DNA of 64,000 bases, taken from positions 1 through 64,000 of the forward strand of contig NZ_VDCQ01000022.1 of assembly GCF_006265175.1 (NCBI RefSeq). Direction: 5' to 3'. Positions 34,962 through 41,236 of the stretch are shown here, piece after piece. Origin of the DNA: Paenibacillus hemerocallicola. GTDB lineage: Bacteria > Bacillota > Bacilli > Paenibacillales > NBRC-103111. The position numbers and the translations under genes were made by a program. The number at the start of each line of letters is the position of its first letter. The first letter of the stretch is position 1. Under the pieces are notes generated by a model that saw only the letters and a program-made list of their open reading frames with translations, had not been told where the DNA came from and did not search any database.

Positions 34962-35936
34962 ATGGCAAAAGCGGATCAACTGCTGGCCGTGCTGTGGCTT
35001 CTGAGATCGAGAAGCCGCATGACCGCGGAACAGCTGGCCGAACAATTGGAAACGAGCGTGCGCACGATTTACCGTTATATTGACGCCCTATGCATGAGCG
35101 GTGTTCCGGTGGAGGCCGAGTCGGGACACGGCGGCGGCTACCGGCTGCCTCCGACATTCCGGGATGCGCCGTTATTTTTCAGCATCGACGAGTTGAAGGC
35201 GATGGTGCACGCGGGGCAATTTGCGGAGCAGGCCGGTTATCCGTATACCGAACCGCTTCGTCAGGCTACGGGGAAAATGCAGAGCAGGCTTAGCGATGAA
35301 CAGGCGGAGCAGTTGCAGCGGCACACGACAGGCTTCGAGGTGATGCAACCGTCGGCCCATCGGGTATCGGAAAGCATTCTTCAAGAGATCGAGCGCGCTG
35401 TCGCGAGCGGCAGCACGCTGTCCATTCTATACGAGAAATGGAAAGGTTCCGACCCGGAGGAACGGAGAGTAGACCCTTACGGGCTGGTGAACCGGCTGTA
35501 CAAATGGTATTTGATCGGCCACTGCCATCTGCGAGACGAAATGCGCGTCTTCCGTGCGGATCGCATAGCCGGCGCTTCGCTGACCGAGCTAACCTTCGTT
35601 CGGCCGGCGTCGTTTTCTCTGCGGGAATTTATGGAGAACCGCTTCGATTTGTGGCACGACCCGGCTGCCGATAAGCCGGATCAAACTGTCAAGCTGCAGG
35701 GGGAGCCTCACTCGATTGCGAGCATTTGCGATAATTGGTACATGCGCGACCGGGTCGTATCCCACTCGCAGACGGACGTGACGCTCCTGTTGACCAAGCC
35801 GACCTTCGAAGGCTTCTTTCCGCGCTACCTCCTGTCGTTCGGCAAAACGATCCGGATCGTCGAGCCCGTCGAATTGCGGCGGCAAGTGGCGGAACTGGCA
35901 CGGGAGCTGGCGGATTATTATGGGGACGGGGCGTAG
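34962..35936 (+). CDS. HTH/WYL-domain transcriptional regulator
   Basis: 324 aa. Residues about 1-55 form a DeoR-type winged helix (LLAVLWLLRSRSRMTAEQLAEQL, SVRTIYRYIDALCMSGVPV). The WYL domain follows at about 140-225 (ILYEKWKGSDPEERRVDPYGLVNRLYKWYLIGH, EMRVFRADRI). A C-terminal WCX-like extension spans about 240-320. WYL domains bind ligands or nucleic acids and usually control the local gene set, but no obvious target adjoins this gene except the sda unit and the comX candidate. ATG 34962 follows AAAGGATCGGG, a weak site. Confidence 0.85.
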   Translation: MAKADQLLAVLWLLRSRSRMTAEQLAEQLETSVRTIYRYIDALCMSGVPVEAESGHGGGYRLPPTFRDAPLFFSIDELKAMVHAGQFAEQAGYPYTEPLRQATGKMQSRLSDEQAEQLQRHTTGFEVMQPSAHRVSESILQEIERAVASGSTLSILYEKWKGSDPEERRVDPYGLVNRLYKWYLIGHCHLRDEMRVFRADRIAGASLTELTFVRPASFSLREFMENRFDLWHDPAADKPDQTVKLQGEPHSIASICDNWYMRDRVVSHSQTDVTLLLTKPTFEGFFPRYLLSFGKTIRIVEPVELRRQVAELARELADYYGDGA

Positions 35937-35948
35937 AACGTAAAAAAA

Positions 35949-35973
35949 GCCGGTCCCTATTGAGGTGACCGGC
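35949..35973 (-). terminator. terminator of the 60-aa comX-candidate gene
   Basis: On the minus strand GCCGGTC - 11-base loop - GACCGGC is followed by TTTTTTTA. It sits 14 bases past the stop of the small ORF, which supports that ORF being transcribed. Confidence 0.85.
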
Positions 35974-35986
35974 AGAAATTGCGCTG

Positions 35987-36169
35987 TCAAAACCAGACTG
36001 TCGCAACGCCAACTTTTTGAACAGATGGTTTTGAAAGAACCCTTTCTAGCATTCTTCTCTCGGAATCAACGATTCCATAATTGATGTTAGCGTTATCAAA
36101 CGACTTTCCTTTTTTCACTGCTGCTCGAACTGCCTCTTGAAGGTTAGGTGACCATTGTACCATTACCAT
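35987..36169 (-). CDS. candidate ComX-type pheromone precursor
   Basis: 60 aa. GGAGG lies nine bases before ATG 36169 and a strong terminator follows, so this is a real short gene. The body, with LQEAVRAAVKKGKSFDNANI and SERRMLERVL, resembles the leader of ComX precursors (helical, Lys-Gly near the middle, acidic-hydrophobic C-terminal part). The C-terminus ends VATVWF: a tryptophan in the last few residues is the side chain that ComQ prenylates in known ComX peptides. The gene is divergent from comP, with comA and comQ behind it. The DNA is AT-rich like the comP sensor half. Sequence identity to known ComX is low by eye, as is usual for this fast-evolving family; the call rests on size, the terminal Trp and context. 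Confidence 0.6.
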   Translation of the reverse strand: MVMVQWSPNLQEAVRAAVKKGKSFDNANINYGIVDSERRMLERVLSKPSVQKVGVATVWF

Positions 36170-36192
36170 AATATCAAACCTCCATACCTATT

Positions 36193-36220
36193 TATTGTAT
36201 TTGGTGCTAATTATACAATA
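36193..36220. promoter_or_regulatory. dyad in the comX-candidate/comP intergenic region
   Basis: TATTGTAT (36193-36200) and ATACAATA (36213-36220) are exact reverse complements separated by 12 bases, in the 74-base divergent promoter region. A TATAAT on the minus strand (36210-36215) overlaps it. It may be the binding site of the cognate response regulator. Confidence 0.4.
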
Positions 36221-36243
36221 TTTTATGCGAAGGTGTGAATACC

Positions 36244-38571
36244 TTGAGAAAAAAACTGACGTTTTTCATCATATTATTATTAATTTCTATTCAAATTTGG
36301 TTTTTCTATTCAATCTATCGTTATCCATATCTGGGCATCAATCTAAGTTTATCCAGTAATGAACAATGGGTGATCCAGTCCATTGACAGGAAAGAAACCC
36401 CGATACTACTTGATGTGAGAATCGGGGATGTTATCAGTAGTGTTGATGGCAGACCCCCTGACGAGCATATCACAGTCAGGAAATGGAGAGCGCTTGAACA
36501 AGCCGACTCCATACAGGTAACTCGTGGTAACGAAGAGAATATACTAGTAGAAACTAGTGTGCTGCAAAGTTCATTCAGTTACGACATTTTACCGATAGTA
36601 GCGGAATTTATATGCTTCCTAGCCTCTTTTCTGCTTTATACTAAAGTGGGCGGCTCAAAATCGGCTATATTTTTGGCTGCAGTTTTTTTAAATATCGGTA
36701 TAACTTTTATGGGACTGGGCGCCTCTGTAAGAGGAGATAACATTGGCAAGTTACTGATAGTGAACTCCATGACACCTATTCCGATTGTTTTCCTGCACTT
36801 CATTATTGTTTTTTTTAAGGAAAAGGGTAGTTTGGTCCTCCGTTCCAACTATTTAAAATACCTTTATATTTTAGCAGCTTGTAAAGCTATATTCAGCTTC
36901 ATTATCTTTCTCCCTGAGTATGTGAACTACAGCATTTACCGTCTCACAAGCCTATTGACTATGTTCATGTTCCTTATTGGTGTGCTTTGGGTTATCGGTA
37001 TTTTGATCTATATATTTATTCGCTATAAGAAAACTCAATCTTACCTCACAACTATTATTAGATTTGTCATTTTTTCATTAATTTTGTCTTTCTGTCCCAT
37101 TATTTTCTTGTCCTTCATTCCAAGTCTGATTTACGGTGCGGCCCCAGTGTCCTCCCATTACTCAAGCTGGTTTGTGCTCATTTTTCCACTAGCATTTGCA
37201 TACTTGATTATTACAAAACAACTGTATGATATTGATGTTGTACTACGACGAATATTGTTCACTGTTATTATGGCTTTGGCGCCGACATTACTTGTTACTT
37301 TACTTGATATCATCTTCTTTTATAATGACTATTCTTTCAAAAAAATTTTAATGTTGTTCTTCACAATTTTAATCGCACTGACGTTCTTCCTCTACTCCAT
37401 AGAACACATGTACACCCGCCTGGAACGGTTCATGTTCCCGCGGAAGCACGTGCTTCAAGCCGCTCTGAAGCGCATATCAAAAGACCTCACCTCCACGTCC
37501 AGCTTCCGCGATCTGAAGGACCTGATCCTTCTTGACATCGTCAACACGCTGCAGGTGTACGGAGGCGCGATCGTCTTCAAATACCGCGACAGCATGGAGA
37601 CCATCCGGGAAGGCGAAATCGACCAAGCCGCGATCGAGCAATTGGTCAGCAACGATACCCCCGAGGAGCACCCGGAGCTGATGTGCTTCGAAATCAACCG
37701 GCACGAGGAATATACAAGCTACTTGATCATGACGCGCAAAAAGTCGAACACGCGGCTCGGACTGGAGGAGGTGCAGTGGCTGAACCTGATTATTTCCTAT
37801 TTGGCCGTTAGCCTCGAGAACGTGTATTTGATCCGCAAGCTGACGGACAAGCTGAACCGTCTCGCCTCCCAATTGCCCGACGAGCAGGAGGCTCAGGATT
37901 TCAACTGGTTCCGCAAGCTCACCTTCGAGCTTCAGGAGCGCGAACGGGTCCGGATCGCGACCGATCTTCACGACACGACGATGCAGGATTTATTTTTCCT
38001 GAAACGCAAGCTGGCGGCAATCGGCGAGAAATATCCTCTCCCTGCCGATGCGAAGGAAAGCATCGGCAGCCTGATCGAATATGTGGAAATTATCAATGTG
38101 AATTTGCGGCAAAGCTGCTTCGACCTGCACCCGTATTTGCTGCAGGAGATCGGGCTCGTGAGAACGATCGAGAAAATTATCGAGCGCGAATCGTACTCTT
38201 GCCCATTCCAAATCCGATTTGATGCGGTTGGCGCAAACGCGATAGAAAGGAAAGATTTGGAGACAAAACGACATTTATTCCGAATCGTGCAGGAATTGTT
38301 AAACAATGCGAAGAAACATTCTGAAGCGACTCTCGTTAGCATTCGGCTGACGTCAAGCAACGGGAAGTTTTGGCTGCATTATCGGGACGACGGCGTAGGC
38401 TTCGATCCGGATCGTCTTACCGCACCGGATGTAGGTACTTCCGGAGTCGGAATGGAGCAGCTGCGCAGCCGCATCCTGCATTTGCAAGGCCATCTGGAGC
38501 TGGATGCCGGTCGCGGTACAGGCGTCGATCTCCGCATCTCGTTTCCTATGAAAGAAGGGATGACCGCATGA
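36244..38571 (+). CDS. comP: ComP-like membrane histidine kinase (peptide pheromone receptor)
   Basis: About 775 aa, as in Bacillus ComP. The N-terminal half (to about residue 385) is a membrane sensor: one helix (residues about 5-20), a PDZ-like extracytoplasmic domain (about 50-100, IGDVISSVDGRPPDEH) and then seven or more membrane helices. The cytoplasmic half has a HisKA_3 box with the phospho-acceptor His near 576 (RVRIATDLHDTTMQDLFFLKRK) and an ATPase with NNAKKHSEATL, DDGVGFD and GVGMEQL. TTG 36244 is chosen because AAGGTG ends eight bases upstream; a GTG at 36235 overlaps that site. The sensor half is AT-rich (30% GC in 36301-36360) and the kinase half GC-rich (63% in 37921-37980), changing near 37400. 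It overlaps comA by four bases. Confidence 0.85.
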   Translation: MRKKLTFFIILLLISIQIWFFYSIYRYPYLGINLSLSSNEQWVIQSIDRKETPILLDVRIGDVISSVDGRPPDEHITVRKWRALEQADSIQVTRGNEENILVETSVLQSSFSYDILPIVAEFICFLASFLLYTKVGGSKSAIFLAAVFLNIGITFMGLGASVRGDNIGKLLIVNSMTPIPIVFLHFIIVFFKEKGSLVLRSNYLKYLYILAACKAIFSFIIFLPEYVNYSIYRLTSLLTMFMFLIGVLWVIGILIYIFIRYKKTQSYLTTIIRFVIFSLILSFCPIIFLSFIPSLIYGAAPVSSHYSSWFVLIFPLAFAYLIITKQLYDIDVVLRRILFTVIMALAPTLLVTLLDIIFFYNDYSFKKILMLFFTILIALTFFLYSIEHMYTRLERFMFPRKHVLQAALKRISKDLTSTSSFRDLKDLILLDIVNTLQVYGGAIVFKYRDSMETIREGEIDQAAIEQLVSNDTPEEHPELMCFEINRHEEYTSYLIMTRKKSNTRLGLEEVQWLNLIISYLAVSLENVYLIRKLTDKLNRLASQLPDEQEAQDFNWFRKLTFELQERERVRIATDLHDTTMQDLFFLKRKLAAIGEKYPLPADAKESIGSLIEYVEIINVNLRQSCFDLHPYLLQEIGLVRTIEKIIERESYSCPFQIRFDAVGANAIERKDLETKRHLFRIVQELLNNAKKHSEATLVSIRLTSSNGKFWLHYRDDGVGFDPDRLTAPDVGTSGVGMEQLRSRILHLQGHLELDAGRGTGVDLRISFPMKEGMTA

Positions 38572-39227
38572 AACGCAATATCCGAACGATCGTCGTAGAC
38601 GACCACCCCGTAGTGGCCAGAGCTACAAAACATATTTTGGAGCAAGTCGAAGGCGTCGACGTCGTCGGCATCGCCGCGAATGGACAAGCCGGAATCGAGC
38701 TCGTCGAGGAGCACCAGCCCGACCTGCTGTTTCTCGATTACCATTTACCGGACCAATACGGCAGCCAAGTCGCCGAGAAGGCGAAACGGCGCAGCCCGAA
38801 TACGCATATCGTCATCTTTACCGGCATCGACTTGGCCGATATGTACAACCATCTGATCGAGATCGGCGTCAGCGGCATCATTTCCAAAGAGTCGGGCGAA
38901 ACGACAATTCAAAATTTGGTCCGCTGTATTTTGGACAACCATACGATGATTCCGATTCCGATCTACAGGCAAATGAGGATCACGAGCCGGCAAAAATCGG
39001 CCGATACGGAGTTTATCGACTTGTCCCCCGACGAAATTCAAATTATGACCCTGCTCGTCAAAGGAGTTACCCACGAGCAAATCGCCGATCAAATCCATGT
39101 GAGCAAACGGTCGGTCGACAATTATTTGAAAAAAATATATGACAAGCTCGACGTGACGAGCCGCATTCAAGCGATCGAGAAGTTCGTCAGAAGCCCGATG
39201 TACGTCGATTTGCAGGAGGAAATTTGA
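38568..39227 (+). CDS. comA: ComA-like response regulator (NarL family)
   Basis: 219 aa. Receiver domain with acidic pocket VVDDHP, phospho-acceptor Asp in LLFLDYHLPDQYG, and the Thr/Lys positions in VIFTG and ISKESG. The C-terminal LuxR-type helix-turn-helix is LSPDEIQIMTLLVKGVTHEQ followed by IADQIHVSKRSVDNYLKKIYDKLDV. ATG 38568 overlaps the comP stop (ATGA) and is preceded by AAGGG. By analogy to ComA it is phosphorylated by ComP on pheromone binding and activates competence, surfactin-like or exoenzyme genes. Its targets here are unknown, and I saw no TTGCGG-N4-CCGCAA box in the intergenic region. Confidence 0.85.
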   Translation: MKRNIRTIVVDDHPVVARATKHILEQVEGVDVVGIAANGQAGIELVEEHQPDLLFLDYHLPDQYGSQVAEKAKRRSPNTHIVIFTGIDLADMYNHLIEIGVSGIISKESGETTIQNLVRCILDNHTMIPIPIYRQMRITSRQKSADTEFIDLSPDEIQIMTLLVKGVTHEQIADQIHVSKRSVDNYLKKIYDKLDVTSRIQAIEKFVRSPMYVDLQEEI

Positions 39228-40192
39228 TGATGGAGCCCGCCCTATTGCAAGAAATCGAGCAGACGATCGACCGGCTCGTGCCGGTGCCCGCCTTCAACTC
39301 GCTGCTCCGCACATTCGTCAAAGACAAGGCCGGGGAAGCGTCGCGTTGGGGCGAAACGACTCGGCACGCGCATTATATGTTCGGAGGCAATTCCCCGCAC
39401 ATAAACCGCATCGCGGCATTGACCGAGCTGATCGTGCTGGCGCTCGATATCGCCGATGATTTGCAGGATCAGGATAATGCCGAGAAAAGCTGGATGCAGT
39501 GCCCGCCGGAGCTGTCGTTGAACGCGGTAATGGGGCTGCTGATGGGAACGATCGGCGAATTGGGCCGGCTGCAAGCGGAGCATCCGGAAGAAACGTTTCC
39601 CGACCCGGGAGAAGCCGCGCTTATCGTGATGAACGCCGTAAACGGTCAATACCGCGATCTGACCAACGATATCGTCACCGAACAGGACTATATCGCCGTC
39701 GTCCAGCAGAAATCGTGCATGCTGCTTAAGCTCGCTTACTTCATGGGCTACGCTTCCGTGCAGCCGGTCCCTCCGGTTGCCGAGCAGATGGAGCTGCTGG
39801 CCGGTTACTTGGGCGTCGTCTCCCAACTCTCCAACGATCTGCGGGACGTGCTGCGATACGATATCAAGAACGATCTGCTGCATAAGAAACGTACGCTCCC
39901 CATCCTATTCCTGCTGGCCGACGAAGAAGAAGCGTTTCCGGTAATCCGTCAATACTATGACGGCGAAATCGACCGCAACGAATTTCTAAAGCACAAGCTG
40001 GCGAGCGTCGACTACATCCGCGAATCCGGTTGCGTGGAATACACGGAAGTAATCAAGACGCTGTTCCTGCAAAAAGCGGAAGAAACGATGGATGCCATTC
40101 CCGCCGCCGATCCCGCTTGGAAGGAACGTTTCCGCGAACTAGTCATAGGCCCGAAGCAGCCTGACGCCGAGACGTCCGACGCTACTTCCTGA
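39227..40192 (+). CDS. comQ: ComQ-like isoprenyl transferase (polyprenyl synthase family)
   Basis: 321 aa. A trans-prenyl transferase fold with both aspartate-rich metal motifs: DIADDLQDQD (first, about residues 72-82) and SNDLRDVLRYD (second, about 205-215). Pairing with ComP and ComA homologues points to ComQ, which attaches a farnesyl or geranyl group to the ComX tryptophan and is needed for its maturation, rather than to a quinone or carotenoid synthase. AGGAGG lies seven bases before ATG 39227, which shares a base with the comA stop (TGATG). In B. subtilis comQ comes first in the cluster; here it is last. A quinone side-chain enzyme is the alternative, but such genes do not normally overlap comA. 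Confidence 0.8.
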   Translation: MMEPALLQEIEQTIDRLVPVPAFNSLLRTFVKDKAGEASRWGETTRHAHYMFGGNSPHINRIAALTELIVLALDIADDLQDQDNAEKSWMQCPPELSLNAVMGLLMGTIGELGRLQAEHPEETFPDPGEAALIVMNAVNGQYRDLTNDIVTEQDYIAVVQQKSCMLLKLAYFMGYASVQPVPPVAEQMELLAGYLGVVSQLSNDLRDVLRYDIKNDLLHKKRTLPILFLLADEEEAFPVIRQYYDGEIDRNEFLKHKLASVDYIRESGCVEYTEVIKTLFLQKAEETMDAIPAADPAWKERFRELVIGPKQPDAETSDATS

Positions 40193-40746: not shown

Positions 40747-41085
40747 CTAATCCTTTTTCTTGAGAGCTTCTACTTGCTCCGACGTTAATCCCGTAGCCTC
40801 TATAATAGTCGGAATATCCATACCGAGTCCCAACATTCGACGAGCCACTTTCTCGATGCCTTGCTCAATTCCTTTCTCAATTCCTTGCTCAATTCCTTTC
40901 TCAATTCCTTGCTCAATCCCCTTCTCAATTCCTTGCTCAATTCCTTGCTCAATGCCTTGCTCAATCCCCTTCTCAATTCCTTGCTCGACGCCCTGCTCAA
41001 AGCCTTTCTGGATTCCGATCTTCATGTATTTGCGTTCCATATCGTATTCCAGATTCTCGAACATCTTCTCCAAATTCGAAATCAT
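40747..41085 (-). CDS. tandem-repeat protein, probable remnant of an Rpn/PD-(D/E)XK family nuclease
   Basis: 112 aa. A short N-terminus (MISNLEKMFENLEYDMERKY) is followed by about eleven copies of a four-residue KGIE/QGIE unit. The C-terminus GLGMDIPTIIEATGLTSEQVEAL is typical of the tail of Rpn-type recombination-promoting nuclease/putative transposase proteins. The catalytic domain that normally precedes the repeats is absent. GGGAGG lies eight bases before ATG 41085, so the short form may still be translated. It converges with the nudix gene. It is either a truncated relic or a stand-alone tail protein. Confidence 0.6.
   Translation of the reverse strand: MISNLEKMFENLEYDMERKYMKIGIQKGFEQGVEQGIEKGIEQGIEQGIEQGIEKGIEQGIEKGIEQGIEKGIEQGIEKVARRMLGLGMDIPTIIEATGLTSEQVEALKKKD
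40858..40988 (-). repeat. 12-bp in-frame tandem repeat
   Basis: About eleven units of the type CAATTCCTTGCT / CAATTCCTTTCT / CAATCCCCTTCT (plus strand) inside the coding region. Units vary at few positions, and copy number is likely to vary between strains without breaking the frame. Confidence 0.9.
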
Positions 41086-41236
41086 CACTCTCGCCTCCCT
41101 CGGCTCGGTGGGGGGCTTTCCCGTCGCTCCTCGTTCAAATCGTTGGCATCCCTTTCAGCGACTTGCTTTTCCTTTATAATAACCGATTTTCCGATTTCAA
41201 GGAACGTGCGTTCCCGTTTTTTTCTGCGATAGCATC

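Follow-up and report, generated by a model that had tools for sequence, protein, structure and literature searches.

The window analysed here is a 64,000-nucleotide stretch of DNA from Paenibacillus hemerocallicola. At 35987-40192 it carries four genes that a sequence-only reading had taken for a rearranged ComQXPA-like locus: a small divergent precursor gene (X), a receptor kinase gene (P), a response regulator gene (A) and a prenyltransferase gene (Q). Table 1 lists these genes and the features found in and around them.

Table 1. Genes, predicted signals and protein motifs of the X-P-A-Q locus (window positions).
Feature	Position	Strand	Remarks
X, ComX-like precursor	35987-36169	minus	60 aa; Trp59, second from the end
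Intrinsic terminator 3' of X	35942-35973	minus	convergent with WYL gene 34962-35936
Predicted X promoter	36210-36239	minus	TTCACA, 18, TATAAT (11/12)
P, ComP-like receptor kinase	36235-38571	plus	GTG start
P domains			PDZ-like residues 32-91 (weak), HisKA_3 570-633, HATPase_c 678-772
A, ComA-like response regulator	38568-39227	plus	receiver and LuxR-type DNA-binding domain
Q, ComQ-like peptide prenyltransferase, putative	39227-40192	plus	321 aa
Q first aspartate-rich motif DDLQDQD	39455-39475	plus	residues 76-82 from ATG at 39230
Q altered second aspartate-rich motif NDLRD	39833-39847	plus	residues 202-206

The gene content, the coordinates and the overlaps of P with A (ATGA) and of A with Q (TGATG) are as the sequence-only reading had described them, and its observation of the locus is confirmed as real. 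Pfam matches above the cut-off were HisKA_3 and HATPase_c for P, Response_reg and GerE for A, and polyprenyl_synt for Q; A is called ComA-like by its domain content, LuxR-type regulators being a large family. P has an alternative start, TTG at 36244, near where its closest relatives begin to match. The assignment of P as a ComP-like kinase held for HisKA_3, but the PDZ-like domain claimed with it reached an E of only 0.0087, below the Pfam cut-off. HisKA_3 and HATPase_c are both present in 22 out of 22 P proteins, in which PDZ_6 (four), PDZ (three) and PDZ_2 (two) appear as weak matches at E up to 0.01. The structure model of P has long N-terminal helices, the membrane domain being read from the model, and places strands at residues 35-106 between helices 2-29 and 114-137; a fold search returned no PDZ protein among the matches listed (50 chains). 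ComP of B. amyloliquefaciens has been modelled with a PDZ-like domain outside the cell, flanked by its first and second membrane helices (PMC9620489). The window also holds, at 40747-41088, a minus-strand ORF bearing a long EQGIEQGIEKGIEQG-type repeat.

All five genomes searched in the genus contain a match to Q, as do, at E 1e-20, 80 of the 104 in the family; the other 24 have none at this threshold. Our set 1 comprises 81 loci in 80 fetched stretches besides the window, 13 of 95 listed places having been left out. By tblastn the P-A-Q order is present in 65 of these 81 ComQ-chosen loci, the synteny in relatives for which the earlier reading had called; seven are P-Q with no A between, two have Q and then P, two are A-Q without P, and in the last five Q stands alone, with A downstream of it in L105. 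The X(divergent)-P-A-Q layout is common and is the usual layout of one ComQ clade; the order as first described stood, but the word "unusual" attached to it did not, as this is no oddity of one genome. The seven P-Q loci (L035, L038, L043, L052, L053, L058, and L082) all carry X, and A is thus not a fixed part. X was detected by a small-ORF profile in 63 of the 81 loci (66 matches). The 18 loci without it include four with an intact P (L065, L081, L094, and L103), two of which have a short Trp-ended ORF at that place. The others are L104 and L106 with the canonical Q-X-P-A order, L105, five loci with Q and no P upstream of it (L037, L061, L064, L086, and L101), four that run into contig ends (L036, L066, L067, and L080) and two with a broken or partial P (L085 and L088). 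L037, L061, L064, and L086 are ComQ homologues without P or A in the fetched stretch. Tandem X-P units occur within one locus in L032 and L079, the latter with a third X-like frame lacking the usual start codon, and in L201-L204, from another family, three receptor genes surround one X (P-P-X-P-A-Q).

In a collection of named sequences, 162 loci encode a relative. The best 80 of 162 carry the titles Paenibacillus, Cohnella, or metagenome bins named Bacilli or Paenibacillaceae, and the nearest among them are P. mesophilus (88%), P. flagellatus (76%), P. ginsengarvi (75%), and P. oceani (71%). Weak relatives were found in six plasmid records, and a search of phages found no relatives. One plasmid (L367, CP031730.1) encodes a Q homologue, a "competence protein ComX", a histidine kinase and a response regulator in a row; it is filed under Stenotrophomonas rhizophila, perhaps under a mistaken organism name, since the genes upstream are matched in a plasmid of Lysinibacillus fusiformis (L368).

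The 60-aa divergent ORF has the signals that the sequence-only reading had ascribed to it: GGAGG lies upstream of the ATG, the C-terminus is VATVWF, and the frame has its own terminator, a 10-pair hairpin with one bulge followed by seven U (-17.5 kcal/mol, z -4.33). A pattern scan whose rule allows loops of 3-8 only did not report this hairpin. Near-consensus promoter sites like that of X number three in 501 bases versus 1.5 expected. An extended -10 box for X is found in 35 of 65 X-P spacers versus a mean of 0.6 in shuffles, at a median of 40 bp from the X start; the window's own TATAAT is without the TG of this box. All 65 complete X of set 1 have their last Trp within three residues of the end, at position -1 in 17, -2 in 46 and -3 in two. 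One further X is cut at the locus end, and one of the 65, in L079, is without the usual start codon. The 51 seed peptides of the X profile had been picked for Trp, and two controls on the terminal Trp were therefore carried out; the bias is removed partly by an N-terminal X profile and fully by a Trp-blind rule applied to Q-chosen loci. The first control also drew on a second set of loci, found with a profile that included the Trp column (40 stretches at further X places, without the six listed places G075:C383, G085:C6, G090:C7, G013:C172, G025:C263, and G506:C46), and on 20 further stretches with intermediate Q scores, 19 from another family of the order and one from a third. In the first control, the X profile minus its last 14 residues matched 106 ORFs, to which set 1 contributed 66, the second set 40 and the 20 further loci none. 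A Trp within three residues of the end was found in 105 of the 106 (including one repeat, L210 and L035) over a background of 4.0-4.4%, the remaining ORF being the one cut at the locus end. In the second control, the longest divergent ORF with a ribosome-binding-like site and a start 40-112 bp upstream of P was taken, Trp ignored, in 80 public named loci chosen by Q alone, many of the same species as set 1. This gave 69 P starts in 68 loci, two of them at contig edges, with no P start under the rule in 12 of the 80. Sixty-seven out of 67 ORFs end in Trp within three residues, compared with 16 of 165 at random places. The small divergent Trp-ended ORF beside P is not due to chance. The earlier reading had made its case hang on conservation of the ORF and of its Trp beside comP, and both are conserved, in 67 of 67 and in 105 of 105 complete ORFs (one repeat). 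The shortness of the frame and the absence of a family-library match might suggest that X is spurious, with P responding to a different signal; since its length, leader and Trp are conserved, as are the ribosome binding site, the promoter box and the terminator, we consider this scarcely credible.

The window X belongs to no family in Pfam, NCBIfam, or PHROGs, where it gave weak chance matches only. The Pfam ComX model (PF05952) matched 3 of 45 X family members weakly (best E 0.0025) and the window X not at all; a search with it of six near genomes found nothing, but its controls had no match either, and across the class it was positive in 26 of 398. The X precursor family thus escapes Pfam and NCBIfam. 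Comparison of the X and ComX profiles gave a probability of 91.7 and a score of 30.4, while 200 permutations of the ComX columns with Trp kept scored 14.0 at most, and the similarity covers the later half of the leader and the Trp. The family search proposed in the earlier reading therefore had a mixed outcome, no Pfam ComX match and a remote kinship by profile comparison, from which the X family appears to be a distant relative of ComX. In 20 loci of the class with Pfam-ComX peptides, our profiles found P in all 20 (5e-100 to 7e-184), A in 15 and Q in 13.

Q is similar to the trans-isoprenyl diphosphate synthases (HepT and IspA) in fold and in the first Asp-rich motif, and differs from them in the loss of isopentenyl-diphosphate motifs and in its separate clade. 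DDxxD is kept in the first Asp motif, the second reads NDxxD instead of DDxxD, and neither the GGKRxRP before the first motif nor the RRG after it is present; the lost motifs are ones that bind isopentenyl diphosphate. The AlphaFold model of Q (pLDDT 92) matched polyprenyl synthases and the prenyltransferase Ord1. One could suppose that Q is a quinone or other isoprenyl-chain synthase lying by chance beside a two-component system, with X unrelated, since it has the fold of polyprenyl synthases and falls in their Pfam family. In a quick-method tree of 80 Q, however, the chain-length synthases split off at 99* and Q clusters with ComQ, without the GGKRxRP and RRG of the former, and two ordinary synthases, HepT-like and IspA-like (named from motifs), are already present elsewhere in the genome; we regard a chain synthase here as very improbable. 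The grouping with quinone synthases that the earlier reading had set against its own proposal was not found. In the same tree, from which PalQ was left out, 38 of the 39 rows labelled as new-layout and L344 form one clade (94, not starred). This label is the default for set-1 Q and the real layouts of the 39 vary: 29 are P-A-Q (28 from set 1 and L363), three are P-Q without A and seven have no P upstream of Q. L105, one of those seven, groups with the canonical L104; L363, which comes from a third family and shows the divergent layout, is placed within the new-layout clade. A Gln before the second Asp motif, a peptide-prenyltransferase marker in the accessible portion of PMC13290415, was dropped because ordinary synthases share it.

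The known ComQXPA systems, of B. subtilis and of a "non-B. subtilis-like" clade as far as given in the accessible text of a census (PMC4008528), have the same four functions as the present locus, and likewise a small precursor with Trp near its C-terminus that shows the remote kinship with X. They differ in their order, Q-X-P-A on one strand as opposed to X(divergent)-P-A-Q; here, X lies below Pfam ComX detection and extra X-P pairs without Q occur. The census gives P. curdlanolyticus the canonical serial order; for L. fusiformis and three strains of B. cereus it reports a "hypothetical comX", encoded on the other strand and placed between comQ and comP (PMC4008528). In the part of the literature that was searched, neither the X(divergent)-P-A-Q layout nor solo X-P pairs were found described. 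A ComX-type peptide is encoded in 17 of the 20 stretches with intermediate Q scores, in most cases from a position between Q and P; two P are present in each of L346 and L347, and L351 is without a profile match. L344 (G657) has the order Q-X-P-A with a precursor that starts MWSKQL like the new leader and ends YWS. This combination of canonical order with a Trp-ended, new-leader-like precursor may represent a transitional form.

X and the sensor part of P diverge faster than their surroundings. Compared with the nearest sister (L031), the kinase half of P, A, and Q are 93, 90, and 89% identical, whereas the PDZ-like part of P is 49%, its membrane part 57% and X 23-30% identical. In 61 pairs, the X distance correlates with that of the P sensor once the kinase half is controlled for (partial r 0.50; 0 of 1000 permutations), and little with that of the kinase half once the sensor is (0.13). 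The GC content is 0.41 in X and 0.37 in the P sensor half versus 0.51-0.59 in their neighbours. In the window, X and the P sensor half lie in an AT-rich island at 35987-37434 (GC 0.28-0.41), with a sharp step near 37400. The GC difference, kinase half minus sensor half, is 0.17 in the window, and 0.06 both in canonical loci and in the mean of the 61 pairs; the dip in GC across X and the P sensor is specific only in part. The pattern of divergence and GC would fit the exchange of peptide and sensor as one cassette. The new pherotype proposed in the sequence-only reading may exist, the fast divergence of X and the P sensor being what pherotype change would look like.

X-P pairs are also found beyond the locus. 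An order-wide search with the X alignment detected X in 85 out of 392 genomes. In the second set, a divergent ComP homologue lies beside X in 40 of 40 stretches (in L198 only a fragment). L210 repeats L035, leaving 39 distinct loci, among which 22 are X-P pairs whose fetched stretch contains neither A nor Q (that of L198 breaks off within P, and those of L181 and L184 end less than 2 kb after P), 11 are X-P-A and six X-P-A-Q. By hand count, 27 of the 78 family genomes with X have more X (E 1e-3) than Q (E 1e-20), two of the 27 (G080 and G011) being incomplete genomes without Q; in the complete genome G012, two X accompany one Q. Searching the window's own genome gave one place for ComQ and two for P. 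The second receptor, P2 (L366, G000:C125:51000-63000; gene at G000:C125:55643-57970), is 61% identical to P, and beside it is a divergent 59-aa ORF, X2, that ends in AWWWE and has AAGGAGGG before it. X2 was found through P2, having been missed by the order-wide X search, and its X-profile score is modest (E 1.3e-5 in the 12 kb). No A or Q was found in the 12 kb around this pair on contig C125. The genes that follow P2 are similar to those behind L172, a satellite pair in the nearest sister, and the two X differ widely. The single ComQ found in the window's genome probably also serves the second X-P pair on C125. With X-P pairs that lack ComQ or ComA, one ComQ may serve several peptide-receptor channels. 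We lean slightly towards a modular multi-channel network, in which one ComQ would prenylate the peptides of several scattered divergent X-P cassettes forming private channels to one shared regulator, and the cassettes would be duplicated and swapped, so that X and the P sensor turn over and Q, A, and the kinase half stay.

The locus could instead be a RiPP cluster of the PalQ/PalX type, producing a secreted lipopeptide with another task (e.g. antimicrobial) and using P-A for autoregulation. In the accessible parts of the P. alvei report (PMC10853753), PalQ, a prenyltransferase of the same superfamily, modifies a Trp at the end of its precursor, and the cluster includes a kinase gene and is described as conserved across various Paenibacillus; a signalling role would also not exclude others. 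However, the same text gives PalX an NHLP-type leader and the core DNVRRFFW with Trp last, and describes loss of PalQ activity with extra residues (PMC10853753), whereas the Trp of the window X, as of most X (46/65), is second from the end. The first SARM position, Asp in PalQ (D200; PMC10853753), is Asn in Q and its clade, and the distance from D89 to Q197 in PalQ is 108 residues (PMC10853753) versus 123 in Q (D76 to Q199). The NCBIfam matches of 45 X at E up to 1 included no NHLP-named family, though NCBIfam may hold no NHLP model, and the PalX core pattern was found in 0 of 392 genomes of the order. A frame in L104 ending NNIRFFW was considered as PalX-like and rejected, the precursor between Q and P of L104 being ComX-like. 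The solo X-P pairs, and the way in which X and the P sensor have diverged together, fit signalling, and we consider a RiPP cluster of this type unlikely.

Taken together, the conserved Trp-ended X beside P, the grouping of Q with ComQ and the kinship of X with ComX argue for a re-ordered ComQXPA-type locus, and we conclude that it is very likely a quorum-sensing system of this type with the layout X(divergent)-P-A-Q. The interpretation in the sequence-only reading is thus supported; that the system is functional, with prenylation, processing, export, receptor binding and targets, we infer from the genes. X would be translated as a 60-aa precursor, Q would attach an isoprenyl chain to Trp59, and the precursor would be cut and exported. 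The short C-terminal prenylated peptide would then bind the fast-evolving extracellular/membrane half of P, P would phosphorylate A, and A would change transcription.

Two papers on P. polymyxa report, in their accessible parts, no comQXPA genes in the strains studied (PMC4209062, PMC6052121), and the wider group could thus easily be thought to lack the system. If the present reading is true, Trp-prenyl peptide signalling would extend from the Bacillus pattern to a large Paenibacillus/Cohnella clade. It would also provide many new natural substrate-enzyme pairs with Trp last, second or third from the end. Several peptide-receptor channels would depend on one modifying enzyme, which would make cross-talk and pherotype evolution testable.
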